Virus record (IMG/VR): IMGVR_UViG_3300025769_000910
Location: 1-22,768 of that record
Strand: one strand, 5' to 3'
From: a virus
Length of the DNA: 22,768 nt
Part shown: one piece after another, positions 7,059 to 19,532 of the stretch
How the letters are laid out: the number at the start of each line of letters is the position of its first letter
Numbering within the stretch: position 1 is the first letter of the stretch
Made by a program: the position numbers and the translations under genes
Notes under the pieces: model-generated
What the model was told of the DNA's origin: nothing
Database searches by the model: none
The model's input: only the letters and a program-made list of their open reading frames with translations

Positions 7059-7445
7059 TTACAGGTTTTTTTGCTCTCTGATCTCATTTCTTTTTCTTGC
7101 CAATTTGTATCTGCTGAATTCCTTTGCCCGGATCACATCACCCCTTGCCCTAGCGCTTTCGTAGATCAGGCAGTACATTTGGTCCTCGTCCTTTGTCTTC
7201 TTCAGCATCCAGTCCGGGTCATGCGGCAACTCATCGCTGAACAGGACTCTTGGCCTCAAACCTAGCTCCTGCACTACATCGAGCCCGCTTACGCCGCAGG
7301 CGAAGCAATGAATGAGCACCTTGCCGTCCTTCTCTGTTAAGCTAAGACTAGGATCTTTATCCTCGCCGTGGATCGGGCAGCTCGCCCTGTAGCTAGAGCC
7401 GTGCTGCCTTACTCGGTTTAAGTGCGGGAGTATCTCAGCAAGCAC
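7059..7445 (-). CDS. Stand-alone CHC2 zinc-finger (primase N-terminal type) protein
   Basis: A 128-aa protein whose first half is a DnaG-type CHC2 zinc domain: C23-P-I-H26, then C47-F-A-C50 with the usual DPSLSL between them and GVSGLDVVQ after. In primases this domain recognises the template start site. There is no TOPRIM catalytic domain here, and the C-terminal 60 residues are charged and helical. It could supply template binding to a host or phage primase encoded elsewhere, or work with the helicase whose stop it overlaps by 11 bases. The start is GTG at 7445, with GAGA about 9 bases upstream. Confidence 0.8.
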   Translation of the reverse strand: MLAEILPHLNRVRQHGSSYRASCPIHGEDKDPSLSLTEKDGKVLIHCFACGVSGLDVVQELGLRPRVLFSDELPHDPDWMLKKTKDEDQMYCLIYESARARGDVIRAKEFSRYKLARKRNEIREQKNL

Positions 7446-8910
7446 GGGCGGGTCTCTTCGCTGAGCGAATGTTGGCGTAAGTGATAAAGCTCATTACATC
7501 CTTCGACTTGCAGACCTCTGGTGTCCGATCTAACCCAACGGGCCAAACCCCAAACTTCTCACGATATTTATGGGATGCCCAGCCGGGATTGAAGCCCTTG
7601 CGATGGCAGTAGTCCATCAGCTCCGACATCCAGCGCTGCTTCATCTGCTTCAGGGTCTCACCATCGGCTAGTACCAGCTTAGTGCCATCGTCTTTCAACA
7701 TCTGCGTATCTGCGGGAAGTATGTATCCGCAATCACACCTGCGGCCCTGAAACGCTGCAGTGCACTGTGGACAGGTATGAGTAATCGGTTCCTTTTCTTC
7801 TTTCTTGACCTGCTCGGTCTCTTTGAATCGCTTCTCGCCGTCATCAAGAGACTCAGGCACTATATCTTCCGCAAAGCCGTGGAGGCTCACGTTGCCCGCA
7901 TGATCGAGGTAGGTAGCCTTCTCCTTGCCCGACGCGGTCCTGAGTATACGCCCAGCCCGCTGCTGGTAGGCTATTATGGACTTACAAGGGAAGCAGTCTA
8001 TTAAGATTTCACACCCCGGATCATCCCAGCCAACACCTAGCAGCCGAGAGCACGAGAGAACCTTATAATCGCCACGCTCAAAGTCACGGTAGAGCATGTC
8101 ACGCTCTTCCTGCGGCGTGTAGCCATCTATATGCGCGGCTGGTATCCCTGCAGAGTTGAATTGCTCAACAAGGTTCTTGCTGTAGGCGATGTTTGGTGCG
8201 AATGCCACAGCCCTGCGCGTTAAGCCGTTACTATGGTCGCGGTAATTATCAACAATACTCCCGGTAAGCTCGATGTCATCAGACATCCGATTACCCAGCT
8301 CTTCCGGATCATAATCACTTCCACCAGTTGTCAGCGCCTTGGTTTTGATACCCTTCGTATCTACACTCTTGCCGACATAATATTCACACTTGGAAAGCCA
8401 GCCTTGCTCTTGCAGCTGCCGAGTAGTGATAGGCACAACAACATCGTTGAATATCTTGCCTAGTCCTTTACTGAACGGTGTAGCCGTCAACCCTACAACG
8501 GGCACCGCATTCCATTGCTCTAGCTTTTCAACAAGAGACTTGTACATGACATGCGCCTCATCGACAATAATTAGATCAGCGTGGGGCCAATCCTTACGCT
8601 TAACCAAAGTCTGCACTGAGGCAATTTGGATAGGTGCCCGATAGCCATCTGATAGGTGATGCTGCGCTTGGATCACGCCAAATTCTAAACCGTGCTCTGC
8701 GTAAGCCTCAATCGACTGCTCGACCAGCTTTATCCGGTCACAGACAAACAATACCCTTTTACCCTTCTCAACCGCTGACTTCGCAATCGCAGCTGCTGTT
8801 ATCGTCTTCCCAAAGCCGCAGGGAGCCGCCAGTATTACCCGGCGATTACCCTGAGACATTGATTCCCGAACCATCTGTATTGCTTGAATCTGATGCTCTC
8901 TTAAATCCAT
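7435..8910 (-). CDS. Superfamily II DNA helicase, RadD/UvsW-like, with C-terminal zinc ribbon
   Basis: A 491-aa ATP-dependent helicase. From the ATG at 8910: Walker A APCGFGKT at 29-36, VDEAH with DEAH at 117-120, TAT at 142-144 and motif VI QQRAGRILR at 316-324, i.e. a complete two-RecA-fold SF2 core. A Cys cluster CPQC...CDCG (380-394) forms a zinc-ribbon-like module, as in RadD (YejH) relatives, and a helical tail follows. Such enzymes remodel forks and recombination intermediates, which fits the Rad52-type gene in the same genome. The frame is open upstream to a TTG at 8967, but that stretch is occupied by the 30-aa gene. The ATG overlaps that gene's stop by 10 bases, with only a weak GGTG before it, so coupling is likely. 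Confidence 0.88.
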   Translation of the reverse strand: MDLREHQIQAIQMVRESMSQGNRRVILAAPCGFGKTITAAAIAKSAVEKGKRVLFVCDRIKLVEQSIEAYAEHGLEFGVIQAQHHLSDGYRAPIQIASVQTLVKRKDWPHADLIIVDEAHVMYKSLVEKLEQWNAVPVVGLTATPFSKGLGKIFNDVVVPITTRQLQEQGWLSKCEYYVGKSVDTKGIKTKALTTGGSDYDPEELGNRMSDDIELTGSIVDNYRDHSNGLTRRAVAFAPNIAYSKNLVEQFNSAGIPAAHIDGYTPQEERDMLYRDFERGDYKVLSCSRLLGVGWDDPGCEILIDCFPCKSIIAYQQRAGRILRTASGKEKATYLDHAGNVSLHGFAEDIVPESLDDGEKRFKETEQVKKEEKEPITHTCPQCTAAFQGRRCDCGYILPADTQMLKDDGTKLVLADGETLKQMKQRWMSELMDYCHRKGFNPGWASHKYREKFGVWPVGLDRTPEVCKSKDVMSFITYANIRSAKRPARAC

Positions 8911-8993
8911 ATCAACACCATTAACATGAAAGAAAGCATTATTGTGTGGGCGCCCATCAGTGCCCAAAATTCTATGTTTTTATTGTGCCTCAT
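8901..8993 (-). CDS. 30-aa membrane peptide
   Basis: The peptide begins MRHNKNIEFWALMGAH and ends in a Met/Leu/Ile-rich segment (MLSFMLMVLIWI), a single membrane span filling the C-terminal half. GGGGG lies 4 bases before the ATG and the stop overlaps the helicase start. No homologue is recognised. The charged N-terminus followed by one span fits a small inner-membrane protein, perhaps a holin or antiholin-like peptide or an inhibitor of a host membrane protein, but this is a guess. Its reality rests on the ribosome site and tight fit between neighbours. Confidence 0.55.
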   Translation of the reverse strand: MRHNKNIEFWALMGAHTIMLSFMLMVLIWI

Positions 8994-10021: not shown

Positions 10022-10201
10022 TTACCGCTCCTGATAATCGCTTGGGAAGTCTCTGATGAAACTTTTAATCAGCTTTACAAGCTCAGTTAGCTTCTCATCG
10101 CTCATCCCGTCATAGTTAAAAGTAAAGCCTTTCATAACGTGCGACTGTCGATTGCAATATTCAATAGCAGATTCTCGGTCAAAGTTCTGTGTCAAAGTCA
10201 T
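10022..10201 (-). CDS. 59-aa protein, first gene after a strong promoter
   Basis: Begins MTLTQNFDRESAIEYCN and has a helical second half (KLTELVKLIKSFIRDFP). A near-perfect AGGAG lies 8 bases before the ATG. It is the first gene of the transcript predicted from the promoter at 10249-10276, behind a 5' hairpin, which argues for high expression. It is too short for most gene callers. No family recognised; the composition is that of a small soluble, mildly acidic helical protein, of the sort phages use as early host-takeover factors. Confidence 0.7.
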   Translation of the reverse strand: MTLTQNFDRESAIEYCNRQSHVMKGFTFNYDGMSDEKLTELVKLIKSFIRDFPSDYQER

Positions 10202-10219
10202 CGGTTTTTCTCCTCAAAG

Positions 10220-10238
10220 GAGCAGCACCGCGCCGCTC
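10220..10238 (-). promoter_or_regulatory. 5'-leader hairpin of the small-gene transcript
   Basis: GAGCGGC and GCTGCTC pair over 7 positions (one G-U) around GCGGT. The hairpin begins only a few bases after the expected start of transcription (about 10242) and ends just before the AGGAG of the 59-aa gene. Stems at the extreme 5' end are known to stabilise mRNAs, and this one could also tune access to the ribosome site. Confidence 0.5.
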
Positions 10239-10248
10239 TATGGTTCCC

Positions 10249-10276
10249 ATTTTACGGATGTAAACATTGGTGTCAA
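10249..10276 (-). promoter_or_regulatory. Strong sigma70-type promoter
   Basis: A perfect TTGACA (10271-10276), a 16-base spacer and TAAAAT (10249-10254, one mismatch to TATAAT) lie in the 89-bp gap between the 50-aa and 59-aa genes. This is the best promoter match I found in the window. It would start transcription near 10242 and serve the small genes, helicase and possibly the packaging genes. The match to the host consensus suggests use soon after infection. Confidence 0.65.
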
Positions 10277-10290
10277 CAAATCCACAACAT

Positions 10291-10443
10291 TTATTTTACA
10301 TTTCTTTCTCGGAGTATTGCTTTGTCCCACGCCTTACACTCAGGGCAGTACCATCCCTGCCTAAATGGCTGGTCTTTATCATCAAATCCAATGACTTGCT
10401 GCATCTGTAATCCGCATTTACACGATTTTGCTAACTCATTCAT
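10291..10443 (-). CDS. 50-aa zinc-ribbon protein
   Basis: Has C8-K-C10-G near the start and W31-Y-C33-P-E-C36-K-A-W later, i.e. C-x-C and C-x2-C knuckles about 22 residues apart, a compact zinc ribbon. AAGGA lies 5-6 bases before the ATG at 10443. It is the first coding sequence after the structured RNA region and follows its last helix by about 30 bases. Small zinc ribbons bind nucleic acids or RNA polymerase, so a transcription or translation regulator is possible. The family is not recognised. Not detectable with a 60-residue cut-off. Confidence 0.7.
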   Translation of the reverse strand: MNELAKSCKCGLQMQQVIGFDDKDQPFRQGWYCPECKAWDKAILRERNVK

Positions 10444-10476
10444 ATATATCCTTATTATGCTGCTGTTAGGAGCCGG

Positions 10477-10882
10477 AGAGATTACAGGGCAATACTCACC
10501 CTAGCCGGGACCGAAGCCCCGGTTTAGTGATATGCCGCCGTCAATCGCCATCGAAGACAGGGAAAGGGCCAGAGGTAGGTCTGCCCTTCTCAGTAGATTA
10601 CGGCCCGTACACGCCGCCTGAGAGCGTTCTACTGCGCTAAATGTGCGTACTGCCAGAGGTTATCCCAACTGGAGCGCGTATTCAGCCACTCATAACGCTG
10701 ATGACAGGGCTTTCTCAGTTTCCCTCAGATTTTACATGCCGGGAGACGCCGGAGCGGACCAACGCATGTGCCTGCCAGTTTGAGAAAGTAGGGAGAGGTG
10801 TTACAATACTACCCAGTCGGGCAGTTGACATCTTTCCCCCTTATCTCTGTCGGCTTTTGCTGGGCTCGTTACCCAGACCGAC
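10477..10882 (-). ncRNA. Candidate large structured RNA (about 400 nt)
   Basis: The 465-base stretch 10444-10908 has no credible gene, but its minus-strand transcript folds nearly end to end. Helices found by eye: 10849-10882 (two stacked 5-bp stems with an internal loop); 10791-10840 enclosing hairpin 10808-10825 (7 bp); 10781-10788 with 10710-10717 (8 bp), enclosing 10764-10769 with 10734-10739 (6 bp); 10682-10701 (5 bp); 10653-10672; 10643-10650 with 10607-10614 (7 of 8), enclosing a small hairpin 10623-10638 whose loop 10628-10634 pairs with 10591-10597 (7-bp pseudoknot); 10564-10588 (9 bp, one bulge); 10505-10522 (7 bp capped by a C(UUCG)G tetraloop) on a longer arm 10488-10536. A possible closing helix joins 10843-10848 to 10477-10482. 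G-U pairs and the tetraloop fix the strand as minus. It does not match tmRNA, RNase P RNA or the riboswitches I could recall. Confidence 0.6.
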
Positions 10883-10888
10883 TTTCCA

Positions 10889-10931
10889 ATCCTAAACCCG
10901 GGTGAAGTTTAATGCAACTCCCGGGTGACGT
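10889..10931 (-). promoter_or_regulatory. Weak promoter with two 12-bp direct repeats, upstream of the structured RNA
   Basis: On the minus strand TTGCAT (10912-10917) and TAGGAT (10889-10894) are 17 bases apart and would start RNA near 10882, the first base of the first RNA helix. The hexamers match only 3 and 4 of 6. The repeat AC(G/T)TCACCCGGG occurs at 10920-10931 and 10897-10908, 23 bp apart (about two helical turns), upstream of and inside the promoter spacer. This suggests an activator or repressor pair of sites. The upstream copy lies in the end of the 69-aa gene. Confidence 0.4.
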
Positions 10932-11118
10932 ACTCTTCATAGCTATCTATGTGCTGCTCGTTATCTTCGAACCAGTTCTCAATCATCTTGAGAAAAAAGT
11001 TCATCGTGTTAATCGCATCGTGATCCTTGCCGGAGAACCTGCTGTGGCTCTTGATAAACCACTCATTTAGCTCATCTGGGGTCATAATTTGGAAGGTAAT
11101 CTCTTCTTCTTTTTTCAT
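10909..11118 (-). CDS. 69-aa acidic protein of unknown function
   Basis: Begins MKKEEEITFQIMTPDELNEW and is helical, with aromatic residues (FFLKMIENWFED) and an acidic end. AGGA lies 7 bases before the ATG, one base after the stop of the HNH/NinG-like gene, so it closes the recombination operon. Its last bases carry one copy of the direct repeat ahead of the structured RNA. No family recognised. Confidence 0.65.
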   Translation of the reverse strand: MKKEEEITFQIMTPDELNEWFIKSHSRFSGKDHDAINTMNFFLKMIENWFEDNEQHIDSYEEYVTRELH

Positions 11119-11119
11119 C

Positions 11120-11536
11120 TTAAAATCCTGTAAATTCTAATCTGCCTGACTCACCCGCGGCTCGCCTAGAGAGCATAGTCTCATACTCCAGCTTATAGTG
11201 CTTAGCGATCTCCTTCTCCGATTTGTGCATACTTTTAGCCAGATTAGTGTCGTTGCGCTTTTCGTTTAGAATCTCTACGGTTCCCGGTCCGAGCTTTTCC
11301 TCTGCCCAGCGCTGAAAATCATGAGGATTACTCCCCAGTAACATATGGCAGCTCATGCAGTGAGCGAAGGCATTGTCTGGGTCCCACCGAGTACCTTTAG
11401 CCCGGCGCCCGAAGTAGTGGCTACAGTGGAGCCCTTGAGAGTTCTGCGGGTACACTGTCTCACAGTGCTCGCAGGTCCAGTTAGCCCTCTCCCTGACGCA
11501 CTTACTAAACCAACTATCTGAAGCTTTTAATCGCAT
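11120..11536 (-). CDS. HNH/NinG-like recombination nuclease
   Basis: A 138-aa protein with zinc-knuckle residues C22-x2-C25, the core HCSHYFGRR (C38, H40), then DPDNAFAHCMSCH (C60-x2-C63-H64). The spacing and the WDPDNAFAHC segment are those of phage HNH proteins often annotated NinG or Rap-like, whose lambda namesake influences recombination in the Red pathway. It ends in a charged helical tail. Neighbours (Rad52-type protein, SSB-like protein) support a recombination role, probably cutting branched or structured DNA; that activity is inferred. It overlaps the preceding gene by 23 bases and has only a weak GGGAT site. Confidence 0.75.
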   Translation of the reverse strand: MRLKASDSWFSKCVRERANWTCEHCETVYPQNSQGLHCSHYFGRRAKGTRWDPDNAFAHCMSCHMLLGSNPHDFQRWAEEKLGPGTVEILNEKRNDTNLAKSMHKSEKEIAKHYKLEYETMLSRRAAGESGRLEFTGF

Positions 11537-16058: not shown

Positions 16059-19000
16059 TTAAACAATCCTAATCTTCAAGTTAGCCGCGTTGGTTGACGT
16101 TATCCTAACCTTATTCTGAGCAGGAGCATCGTAGGTGTAGTCAGTGCCTAGTATTGCGCCTTGGTTTAAGACATTCGCATCGTAGTTAATCGCAACACCG
16201 TCACTGCTTGGAACCGTACTGCCACTAGACATGTTAAAGATAATTGCTAAGTCTAGGTCATTAGCTAACGTAAAGTGGTTGGCATCAGGGATAGCGTCCA
16301 GTTGCGTCTTGTTCATTTGGTTTGGATAGGATGCTGTTCCCAGACTGTATTCTTTAATTGTGTCATCTCCCGGCAAAGCTCCCAGCAGCTTTGTACCCGC
16401 AGAATTAACGAACACTCCCGCAATGTTATTTCCCGTAACAAAGCTCTTACTAGCATAGCTTAGACTGCTGGTGTCGTAAGCGGTCGTCAGCGTGTATTGA
16501 TATACGGTTCCGCTGCTGTCGTTCTCATCAGCAACATAAAGTTTAGTTCCATCACCGTTAAAACAAAATCCCTGCGGATTTCCTGATTGTGTGCTTACGC
16601 TTGTAGATGACTCGTGACTAGCAGTGGTTACGTCATAAGCAGTGCTAAGATTAAACTCTTCAATTTGGTCATCGCTATCTGAAATCGTATATATTTTTGT
16701 TCCGTCATTATTTATTTGCACATCTCTCATATCAGTTGTTACAGAGCTAGTGTTAAAAGAACCAACGGCACTAGCGCCAGCGGTGCTAATATCAAACCCA
16801 GTGCTTAGGGAGAACTGATGTATTGAAGCGTTACCGGAGCTAACAACGTACATTTTTGTTCCGTCACTATTAAAAGTTACTCCATCTATTCTTCCAACTC
16901 CTAAAGAATTTGAAGAATCAAACGACGCAGTGCTGACATCAAAGCCAGTGGTAAGATGGTATTCTTTGATTGAGCTATCAGTCGTTGAACCAACAATCAT
17001 TCTTGTTCCTGTTGGATTAAACGTAACGGCTTCAGGGCCAGTGGTCTGGCTGCTAACGTCAAATGAATTATTTAGTGATGCCGTAGACAAATCATCAGCT
17101 CCAGTTACACTAGCCGCACCCGTCATAGCCTCCTGAATAGCAGCTAGCTCTGCGTTGGTAGTAGCATTCGCCCAAGTCGTAGAGCCATAAGTACCATTAG
17201 AGTTGTACTGCCACGTTCCTGAGTTGTTCCTGACTATGCTTCTCTCACCATCAGTACCTTTGGCAACCTTCCACGTTGTCCTGTCATCAGTAGATACGCA
17301 GTAGTAGATCGCGCCAGAACCAGCAGCTTCATCTGCTGTCATAGAATTAATGTCAGTCCAGTATGTTGAGTCTGTGGAGGTTGTGGTGTGGGCTGCGTGG
17401 TAGCCTGATGGGATATTAGAGGATGCGCATGAATACTCATAGACTGTGCTTGCAGCATTTTCACCAGATATAAAGCTCTGGTCATCAGGTAATATAAAAA
17501 GATGCGCGCTTGAACTCATCTGCCCAGACATCGCATACGACCTACCTGTATAACTAGCTGTGGCAATGTCAAAGCCTGTTGTCAGCTCATATTCAAAGAC
17601 CGTTTCGCTAGAAAAATCATTTACGAATATTTTTTTCCCGTCTGAGCTAATGCCCATTGATGCTGCAGAGCTTATCTGACTGCTTACGCTAAAAGACTTG
17701 TTTGCATAACTTGCGCTGCTGACGGTAAAAGCTGTAGACAATGTGTATTGGTACAATGCGTTATCTGTATCATCTACGATAATCATTGTTGTGCCAGCAG
17801 GATTGAAAACGACTCCTTTTGCATCAGTAGATTGCGAACTAATATTAAAACTGCCGTCAAATGAATATTGGTCTATTTCAAACTCATTTCCTGACGAGGC
17901 GCTAAACTGCAAAAGATTGTTGCCGTTTTTGCCCGCAATAAACATTCTGTGTCCAGTAGGGCTAAACCATAGTCCACTAGGGTTTGAGTCCCTGTTCCCG
18001 ACTCCAAGATATTTACTTGCGTAACTTCCAGTTGTTATGTCAAAAGCAGTGCTAAGATTTAGCTGTATTACGTCATTTGGCCCATCATCAGTAACAAATA
18101 ACCTAGTTCCCGCAGAGTTAATGAATATTCCAGTAGGTGCGCTTATGTTTGCGCCACCTGTAGCTAGATTTAAGGTAGCAACTTGAGAAGGGCTAGAAAG
18201 GTTTGCCAATTTCACCTGACCACTTAGCTCCAAGTCACCATCAGTCGTGTTAAATACAACGCCATACATCTCCCAAGAGCCTGAAGCTACTTGAGCGTAT
18301 GAAGTTGGTGCTGTGGTTTGAGATATAGCGCCAGCAGTAGAAGTTAAAATAAACACACCACTGTTAGCTTCAATGGTTTTACCTACATCAGCAGATGCGA
18401 AGGAGCCTGAGCCTAGCGCCACTTTTGGGACTATTGAGTATTCATTTACCTCATCTCCAGCATTACCAACAATAAACATCTTAGTGCCGTCAGTGTTAAA
18501 AGTTATTCCTGCTGGCGATGTTTCTTGTGCTGAAACGCTCAAGTTTTGTGAGTAAGAAGCAGTAGACACGTCAAATCCAGTAGTCAATGTGTACTCATTA
18601 ATATCATCTCCAGTAAAACCACAAATGAACATTTTTGTGCCATCAGTGTTAAAAGCTATTCCTGCTGGCTGTGTTTCTTGAGCATTTACTGAAAAATTTT
18701 GAGAGTAACTAGCTGTGGATACGTCAAATCCTGTGCTTAACGCATATTCATTAACCTCAATGCCATCAATACCAACGATGAACATTTTGGTGCCATCATT
18801 ATTAAAAGCTATTCCTTGTGGCTCAGTCTCTTGTGATGCTACTGAAAAACTATCTACAAATGATGCTGTAGATACATCAAACCCTGTACTCAATGTGTAT
18901 TCGTTGACATCCTGTCCAGTATAACCAACAACAAACATCTTAGTGCCATTAGTGTTGAAGGCTAAATCTTTTGGATTAGCCTCTTGCCCTGAAACACTAA

Positions 19001-19532
19001 AATTTTGCGAGTAGCTTGCCGTTGATATATCAAAGCCTGTAGTTAACGTATATTCGTTTACATCTTGCCCAGATTGTCCCAAGATAAACATTTTGGTGCC
19101 ATCTGTATTAAAAGCTATACCTTGTGGGTCTGTGTCTTGGGATGAAACGCTAAAATTCGTAGTAAAAGAGGCTCCAGACACATCAAACCCTACAAAGTCC
19201 AAAGTAGTCGCAGAAGCAGTGTTATATCGCGTGTAGTTCTCCGAGGATGAATTAACATCCCATTCGTTATTACTCACACCTGATTGAGCAACTTCTTTAG
19301 TTACTCCAATAATCGGAGACAGCACATTACCCGACAAGGTAATAGTAGATGATTCACCTGCGGAGTATGTCTTGGTTTGACTGCCAGAGGTTACATTGAT
19401 ATTCGATATTGCTGTAGCATTAGTAGCTACGTTAGCTGTAAGCGTATTGAGCTGAGTCTGAGCATCAGAAGTCAGGTTATCAATAAAGTTAATCGTGGCG
19501 GCGCTATCGCCAATGTCTCTTGATTTGCTCAT
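16059..19532 (-). CDS. Tail fibre-type protein with 15 propeller-like repeats
   Basis: An 1157-aa virion surface protein, probably host-binding. Layout: coiled N-terminus with TLTANVATNATAIS (about 1-70); repeat block 1 (116-366), five units of exactly 51 residues with core FNTDGTKMF and ending NEYTL; linker (370-440); block 2 (441-703), five more diverged units of about 52; insert (704-814) with AIYYCVSTDDRTTWKVAKGT; block 3 (815-1066), five units of 49-53; and a C-terminal domain (about 1070-1157) with NKTQLDAIPDANHFTL and ending KIRIV. The repeats resemble beta-propeller blades of the NHL/YVTN kind, seen in marine phage fibres. GAGG lies 7 bases before the ATG; the gene follows the chaperone-like gene by 2 bases. 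I infer receptor or glycan binding. Confidence 0.75.
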   Translation of the reverse strand: MSKSRDIGDSAATINFIDNLTSDAQTQLNTLTANVATNATAISNINVTSGSQTKTYSAGESSTITLSGNVLSPIIGVTKEVAQSGVSNNEWDVNSSSENYTRYNTASATTLDFVGFDVSGASFTTNFSVSSQDTDPQGIAFNTDGTKMFILGQSGQDVNEYTLTTGFDISTASYSQNFSVSGQEANPKDLAFNTNGTKMFVVGYTGQDVNEYTLSTGFDVSTASFVDSFSVASQETEPQGIAFNNDGTKMFIVGIDGIEVNEYALSTGFDVSTASYSQNFSVNAQETQPAGIAFNTDGTKMFICGFTGDDINEYTLTTGFDVSTASYSQNLSVSAQETSPAGITFNTDGTKMFIVGNAGDEVNEYSIVPKVALGSGSFASADVGKTIEANSGVFILTSTAGAISQTTAPTSYAQVASGSWEMYGVVFNTTDGDLELSGQVKLANLSSPSQVATLNLATGGANISAPTGIFINSAGTRLFVTDDGPNDVIQLNLSTAFDITTGSYASKYLGVGNRDSNPSGLWFSPTGHRMFIAGKNGNNLLQFSASSGNEFEIDQYSFDGSFNISSQSTDAKGVVFNPAGTTMIIVDDTDNALYQYTLSTAFTVSSASYANKSFSVSSQISSAASMGISSDGKKIFVNDFSSETVFEYELTTGFDIATASYTGRSYAMSGQMSSSAHLFILPDDQSFISGENAASTVYEYSCASSNIPSGYHAAHTTTSTDSTYWTDINSMTADEAAGSGAIYYCVSTDDRTTWKVAKGTDGERSIVRNNSGTWQYNSNGTYGSTTWANATTNAELAAIQEAMTGAASVTGADDLSTASLNNSFDVSSQTTGPEAVTFNPTGTRMIVGSTTDSSIKEYHLTTGFDVSTASFDSSNSLGVGRIDGVTFNSDGTKMYVVSSGNASIHQFSLSTGFDISTAGASAVGSFNTSSVTTDMRDVQINNDGTKIYTISDSDDQIEEFNLSTAYDVTTASHESSTSVSTQSGNPQGFCFNGDGTKLYVADENDSSGTVYQYTLTTAYDTSSLSYASKSFVTGNNIAGVFVNSAGTKLLGALPGDDTIKEYSLGTASYPNQMNKTQLDAIPDANHFTLANDLDLAIIFNMSSGSTVPSSDGVAINYDANVLNQGAILGTDYTYDAPAQNKVRITSTNAANLKIRIV
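16335..17090 (-). repeat. Fibre repeat block 3 (5 diverged units)
   Basis: Codes residues 815-1066 of the 1157-aa fibre, five units of 49-53 residues. Cores such as FNPTGTRMIV, FNSDGTKMYV, INNDGTKIYT, FNGDGTKLYV and VNSAGTKLLG show the same blade with much change. The unequal unit lengths mark it as older than block 1. Confidence 0.7.
17424..18212 (-). repeat. Fibre repeat block 2 (5 diverged units)
   Basis: Codes residues 441-703, five units of about 52 residues with cores INSAGTRLFV, FSPTGHRMFI, FNPAGTTMII, ISSDGKKIFV and the most degraded ILPDDQSFIS. The last unit has lost the Gly-Thr-Lys core. Confidence 0.7.
18435..19187 (-). repeat. Fibre repeat block 1 (five units of exactly 153 bp)
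   Basis: Codes residues 116-366. The Glu of the NE-Y motif recurs at 160, 211, 262, 313 and 364, exactly 51 residues apart with no insertion or deletion. DNA similarity between units is visible (repeated 'ttttggtgccatc...ttaaaagctat' type blocks, with changes), which indicates recent tandem duplication or ongoing homogenisation. Confidence 0.8.

Follow-up and report, generated by a model that had tools for sequence, protein, structure and literature searches.

Locus and predicted RNA

The window (the whole stretch of DNA analysed here) is a complete IMG/VR record of 22,768 bases representing a fragment of a tailed phage with terminase, portal and tail-fibre genes. A 1157-aa ORF without a PHROG match (16059-19532) adjoins the tail-fibre assembly and tail-fibre genes. 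The minus-strand genes include those for NinG, an Erf-like protein, an exonuclease, an SF2 helicase and a primase zinc-ribbon protein, NinG being the HNH gene of the window and lying upstream of the RNA described below. This RNA is flanked by a 69-aa ORF (10909-11118) and by a 50-aa ORF with CxxC motifs (10291-10443), for the product of which the family search gave no match. The features of the locus are as follows.

10889-10917, minus strand: putative sigma-70-type promoter, TTGCAT 10917-10912, 17-bp spacer, TAGGAT 10894-10889; ends 6 nt before P1
10444-10883, minus strand: whole RNA, about 440 nt, from the predicted transcription start to the base preceding the next start codon
10849-10883, minus strand: 5' hairpin of P1 local (10882-10878/10853-10849) and P2 (10876-10872/10864-10860), paired in all groups
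10815-10883, minus strand: P1 distal, AGUCGG 10883-10878 with CCGACU 10820-10815, from the swap test (see below)
10790-10841, minus strand: P3, purine-rich 10841-10835 with pyrimidine-rich 10796-10790, from the swap test
10702-10777, minus strand: P4 (10777-10771/10708-10702) around P5 (10768-10764/10739-10735) and P5b (10756-10754/10749-10747)
10686-10697, minus strand: conserved strand CGUUAUGAGUGG at the P4-P7 junction, its final G opening P7
10636-10686, minus strand: P7 (10686-10680/10642-10636) around P8 (10672-10669/10656-10653)
10666-10665 and 10659-10658, minus strand: inner GG and CC of P8
10591-10634, minus strand: P9 (10634-10628/10597-10591) around P11 (10615-10613/10604-10602) and a conserved CGUAAU strand
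10564-10588, minus strand: P12 hairpin (10588-10583/10569-10564), the loop of which kisses loop 11 in other groups
10488-10536, minus strand: P13, the 3' hairpin (10536-10526 with 10502-10488), with a UUCG stem cap (10522-10516/10511-10505) and the conserved 3' strand AGGGUGAGUAUUGCC
10456-10542, minus strand: direct repeats r1 (GACGGCGGCAUA, 10542-10531) and r2 (AACAGCAGCAUA, 10467-10456), flanking P13
10441-10453, minus strand: predicted Shine-Dalgarno sequence AAGGAU (10453-10448) and start codon of the next gene (10443-10441)
10291-10443, minus strand: CxxC protein of 50 aa, first gene past the RNA (from the ORF list)
7059-8967, minus strand: SF2 helicase (RadD-like) and CHC2 primase zinc-ribbon protein, in the operon headed by the RNA

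A sequence-only reading of the window had proposed a large multi-helix RNA with a UUCG-capped hairpin on the minus strand of 10444-10908, and this proposal was borne out by covariation and by a covariance-model match on the predicted strand. The extent had to be shortened, the RNA reaching only to about 10883 and positions 10884-10908 belonging to the promoter. The boundaries rest on the homologous stretches (L004-L014 and the diverged groups) and on promoter geometry. That the minus strand of 10444-10883 encodes a large structured RNA is, in our judgement, practically certain.

Homologues and covariation

Folding energy was only suggestive. The minus strand of the non-coding stretch has a minimum free energy of -172.4 kcal/mol against a mean of -158.4 for shuffled sequences (z -2.13) and the plus strand gave z -1.67, so that folding energy by itself would not have decided the matter. 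The structured RNA was accepted because homologues and covariation do. Close relatives, 80-96% identical, were reached in IMG/VR via the proteins adjoining the RNA, and diverged members (L052/L103, L114/L122, L104/L108/L124, L088/L090/L121/L127, L069 and L050/L075) were then reached via conserved strings of the window's group. The relatives, from many uncultured phages, fall into at least eight diverged groups. Reading frames across the RNA stretch are not conserved among them, which marks the stretch as non-coding.

A covariance model, R1, was built from eight sequences only (L052, L103, L114, L122, L069, L104, L108 and L124), with the window's own group left out. It matches the window once, at 10562-10700 on the minus strand (E=6e-15), and also recovers the rest of the window's group, the L088 group and L050/L075. 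A final pattern scan added the members L218 and L175, at E of about 1e-15 or below; no model match up to E=0.1 was obtained in 73 other loci (660 kb). Members found by pattern share the pattern letters by selection, the helices being part of no pattern. The string GUUAUGRGU belonged to the search pattern, and the conservation of the P4-P7 junction strand is thus partly due to selection; it is conserved in otherwise-found loci too. The genome-scan route with R1 missed the window itself and was discarded, whereas with model R2 it recovered seven known members.

In the plain MAFFT alignment of eight sequences (A3), the 36 named pairs were formed in 96.4% of 275 cells, compared with 75% in shuffles and 29-42% when the partners were slid. 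Changes on both sides were seen in 25 of these pairs, with 66 both-side changes versus 19 in shuffles. The 22-sequence alignment, which leans to the structure, kept 97.1% of pairs and contained 191 both-side cells against a shuffled mean of 53. P4, P5 and P5b, aligned separately with MAFFT, gave 86% vs 66% and 51 vs 19 both-side cells, the shortfall coming partly from a shift by one column among the L088 sequences (judged by eye). Sliding of the partners by 1-3 columns abolishes the pairing signal. P9 has the strongest support of all helices in the family, with both-side changes at all seven pairs among the 22 sequences; in the same alignment P12 is paired in 100% of cells and covaries at 6/6 pairs. 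P7 is paired in 105 of 107 cells, with as many as six kinds of pair at a single position, and P4 is 98% paired (MAFFT, 16 sequences) with both-side changes at 5/7 pairs.

In most groups loops 11 and 12 form a 6-bp kissing contact that covaries in five of its six pairs (A3). Matching loop partners occur in L218 (CGUUAA/UUAACG) and L175 (UGUUAU/AUAACA), neither of which was used to define the contact; no clear equivalent was detectable in the window's own group. Helices P1, P2 and P3 are manual assignments, which were examined in a swap test that exchanged the partner strands of different species. P1 distal kept 95 of 99 pairs versus 46% when swapped, and P2 kept 63 of 66 versus 52%, with 11 distinct strand pairs. 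The support is weaker for P3 (68/69 over 10 sequences versus 73%), and P1 local (65/65 versus 93%) is uninformative by covariation.

The individual helices proposed earlier, counted on the eight sequences of the window's own group, fared unequally. The 6-bp stem 10764-10769/10734-10739 is identical to P5, pairs in 48/48 cells with a C-G to U-A change, and covaries in all groups. The C(UUCG)G hairpin at 10505-10522 and the 7-bp pairing 10628-10634/10591-10597, which is P9, are both intact in 56/56 cells. In the case of the 9-bp hairpin at 10564-10588, the outer six base pairs correspond to P12, but the inner three pair in only 0-5 of 8 cells. Three further helices were not supported: the 8-bp helix 10781-10788/10710-10717 is present only in the window's group, has three broken cells and crosses the strongly covarying P4; the stem 10643-10650/10607-10614 pairs in 49 of 64 cells, one position never pairing; and the stem at 10808-10825 (48/56 cells) competes with a long-range pairing. 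Of the pseudoknot that had been described between P9 and the 10643/10607 stem, P9 stands, but since the second stem is unsupported the crossing fails with it. The crossings actually present are the loop 11-loop 12 contact, seen in most groups and not in the window's, and that between P1 distal and P3.

Promoter, downstream genes and alternative pairings

The promoter of the window is weak, with 7/12 matches, no better than shuffles, and was not reported by the promoter scan. All 18 sequences compared have their best promoter-like match upstream of P1 with a spacer of exactly 17, ending 4-9 nt short of this helix. These matches average 8.8/12 versus 7.0 in shuffles, reach 8-11 in the other groups, and are strong in L050, L088, L090, L103 and L108. 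The terminator scan of window positions 10200-11200 found none (other members were read by eye), and in L218 a GC stem followed by a T-run, also recognised by eye, lies directly before the promoter and is probably the intrinsic terminator of the upstream gene. Given the promoter geometry, the absence of a terminator and the terminator-like stem upstream in L218, a separate transcript very likely begins with the RNA and continues into the next gene, as far as can be predicted from sequence.

The 3' hairpin motif and the next start codon are separated by 42-54 nt in 13 sequences, the genes that follow being unrelated and encoding the small protein, the CxxC protein, the helicase, an HNH protein and others. 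In several groups the gene of a small conserved protein (alignment A5) comes next after the RNA, ahead of those for the helicase and the primase protein. This A5 family (e.g. L142 1198-1389) consists of 64-65-aa proteins of the pattern MxCPxGGxxTExxHxVKTxxKAxEW encoded directly past the RNA; no match to it was found in INPHARED. The helicase gene comes directly after the RNA in L069 and L127, L175 has other small genes and the helicase, and in L163 HNH and RecT genes follow, with an O-like initiator elsewhere. The upstream flank in several groups contains NinB/NinG-type recombination genes. The predicted probability of the Shine-Dalgarno sequence being unpaired ranges from 0.11 to 0.90 with no common hidden or open state, and a model with an always-hidden site is not supported by these values.

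Two features resemble those of a switch. For the 5' strand of P1 there is a near (local) and a far (distal) partner, the two pairings being mutually exclusive, and both partner strands are present in nearly all sequences covering the region. The repeats r1 and r2, of which r2 adjoins the Shine-Dalgarno sequence, differ between species and match within a species. Comparable repeats occur at the same places in other groups and are singly significant in L052, L104, L124 and L014, being weak in others. A common third strand pairing with both repeats was not found by eye. Taken together, the P1 alternatives and the repeats suggest strand exchange.

Possible functions and relation to known RNAs

The promoter of its own, the lack of a terminator and the fixed spacing to whichever gene follows suit a long operon leader better than a free-standing RNA. 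For these reasons we prefer, tentatively and at somewhat less than an even chance, to regard the RNA as a new class of phage leader of about 440-530 nt that would control a replication/recombination operon in cis. The nascent RNA would fold into the P4-P12 core, with an exclusive choice between P1 local and distal at the 5' end and between r1 and r2 at the 3' end; this choice might set transcription into, or translation start on, the downstream genes, in response to some ligand, protein or infection state. Such a leader shares with the large riboswitch-type and put-like antitermination leaders an own promoter at the 5' end of the operon (weak in the window), the lack of a terminator and exclusive pairings, and its relation to the start codon is fixed. 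However, it is much larger, has no known aptamer, and its fold has no Rfam family; the core far exceeds the usual size of leader switches. The first gene past the RNA varies by group, which argues against gene-specific control, the Shine-Dalgarno sequence has no common accessibility state, and, phage genomes being compact, the short distance to the gene could reflect packing.

Size, together with the precedent of OLE, ROOL and GOLLD, places close behind it a stable noncoding RNA of the ornate large kind, cut from an early transcript and acting in trans as an RNP, an RNA assembly or a ribozyme, a role that is possible but doubtful. It would accommodate the number of helices, the invariant unpaired stretches, the covarying loop-loop contact, the promoter at the 5' end and the varying downstream genes. 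OLE, ROOL and GOLLD self-assemble via kissing loops among other contacts (PMC12286853). The absent terminator and the near-constant start-codon distance speak against this role, and no processing signal was identified. The likeness to ornate large RNAs pointed out in the sequence-only reading accordingly extends to size and complexity and no further, the promoter, terminator and distance data favouring a leader.

A categorically new RNA machine, that is, a switchable RNA or ribozyme which heads a replication operon and gates or primes phage DNA replication, appears rather unlikely. Quite improbable is an origin or primer RNA, in which the structured transcript would stay hybridised to DNA and serve to initiate replication together with the helicase and primase encoded nearby. 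Phage UvsW unwinds RNA-DNA hybrids of this type, plasmid RNA II is of about the same length as the present RNA, and the RadD-like SF2 helicase and the primase zinc protein are encoded downstream of the RNA in most members. Yet HNH and RecT genes come next in L163, the O-like initiator being elsewhere, and origin function needs no fixed start-codon distance. A DNA-level element (operators, iterons or a recombination site) with repeats mimicking RNA helices could explain r1 and r2, but is very improbable, as G-U pairs and loop-loop pairing are among the compensatory changes and the signal is lost on sliding by 1-3 columns. Chance folding of an eroded coding region, compatible with the moderate z-scores on both strands, is refuted by the covariance model, the covariation and the lack of a conserved frame, and its probability is negligible.

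The earlier reading had recognised no signature of GOLLD, ROOL, OLE or HEARO, and Rfam gave no match at E<=10 beyond two chance-level scores. The cmscan searches of the window and eight member loci returned no GOLLD, ROOL or OLE match up to E=10 and E=1, and no catalytic core of group I or group II introns. GOLLD and ROOL are likewise large, phage-encoded RNAs of unknown function with many helices and with crossing and loop-loop contacts, and often lie near tRNAs (PMC12286853), whereas the present RNA matches neither model, is smaller and heads a replication operon, and ARAGORN found no tRNA in the window. OLE, also large and structured, differs in organisms and gene partners. HEARO/OMEGA RNAs are similarly a few hundred nucleotides long and sometimes located near HNH genes, but the present RNA has no Rfam match and no IscB-type HNH partner, being followed by the CxxC gene and, in most members, by the helicase operon. 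An ~800-nt noncoding RNA in ORF-less space by the lysis genes of phage ICP1 (PMC7567579), compared by description, is comparable in size class and setting and differs by its lysis-gene location.

INPHARED DNA searches with the window RNA, L069, L052, L088 and L104 found no match. In the scanned genomes the strict pattern found nothing and a looser one yielded four chance matches in coding regions only; R2 found nothing in 369 genomes of the Pseudoalteromonas class, a weak negative given the stricter filters. No published description was found in the open-access literature searched. With no match in Rfam, cultured-phage DNA, scanned genomes or this literature, the RNA is a new family of an already known kind, that of large structured phage RNAs and operon leaders. 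RNA classes this large and complex are few and mostly without known function, and the present one offers a defined 5' end, a helicase/primase gene context and natural compensatory changes, by which structure and function become testable together. Cis control of the phage replication genes would place it with the largest leader switches known, and action in trans would add a class to the ornate RNAs.

Several further loci deserve mention. L183 5519-5635 is clearly coding, yet scores E 5e-4 with R1, and short-calibrated E-values near 1e-3 are thus unsafe; for this reason L146 2026-2148 (E 2e-4) is taken as no more than a candidate member. In this locus and in L154 (~1955-1990), strings resembling the P8 hairpin (AUUGGNNNNAACCUUG) precede the same small-protein gene, and both are possible, very diverged members. 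Upstream of the small-protein gene in L147, a contig without a match to the covariance model, further strong hairpins occur at 1270-1400 and 1660-1720, one of them terminator-like with a T-run. In Pseudomonas phage YA3 (L141, MK819239.1) a G+C-rich gene-free gap of 472 nt (38066-38536) is followed by a 64-aa gene, the helicase and the primase. Despite the same setting it was rejected as a member, R2 giving no match, and possibly represents an unrelated or very diverged structured leader. In L011 (~7100-7560) an additional ORF, several hundred bases long, is inserted between the RNA and the CxxC ORF, and the 3' part of the RNA stays adjacent to the new start codon.
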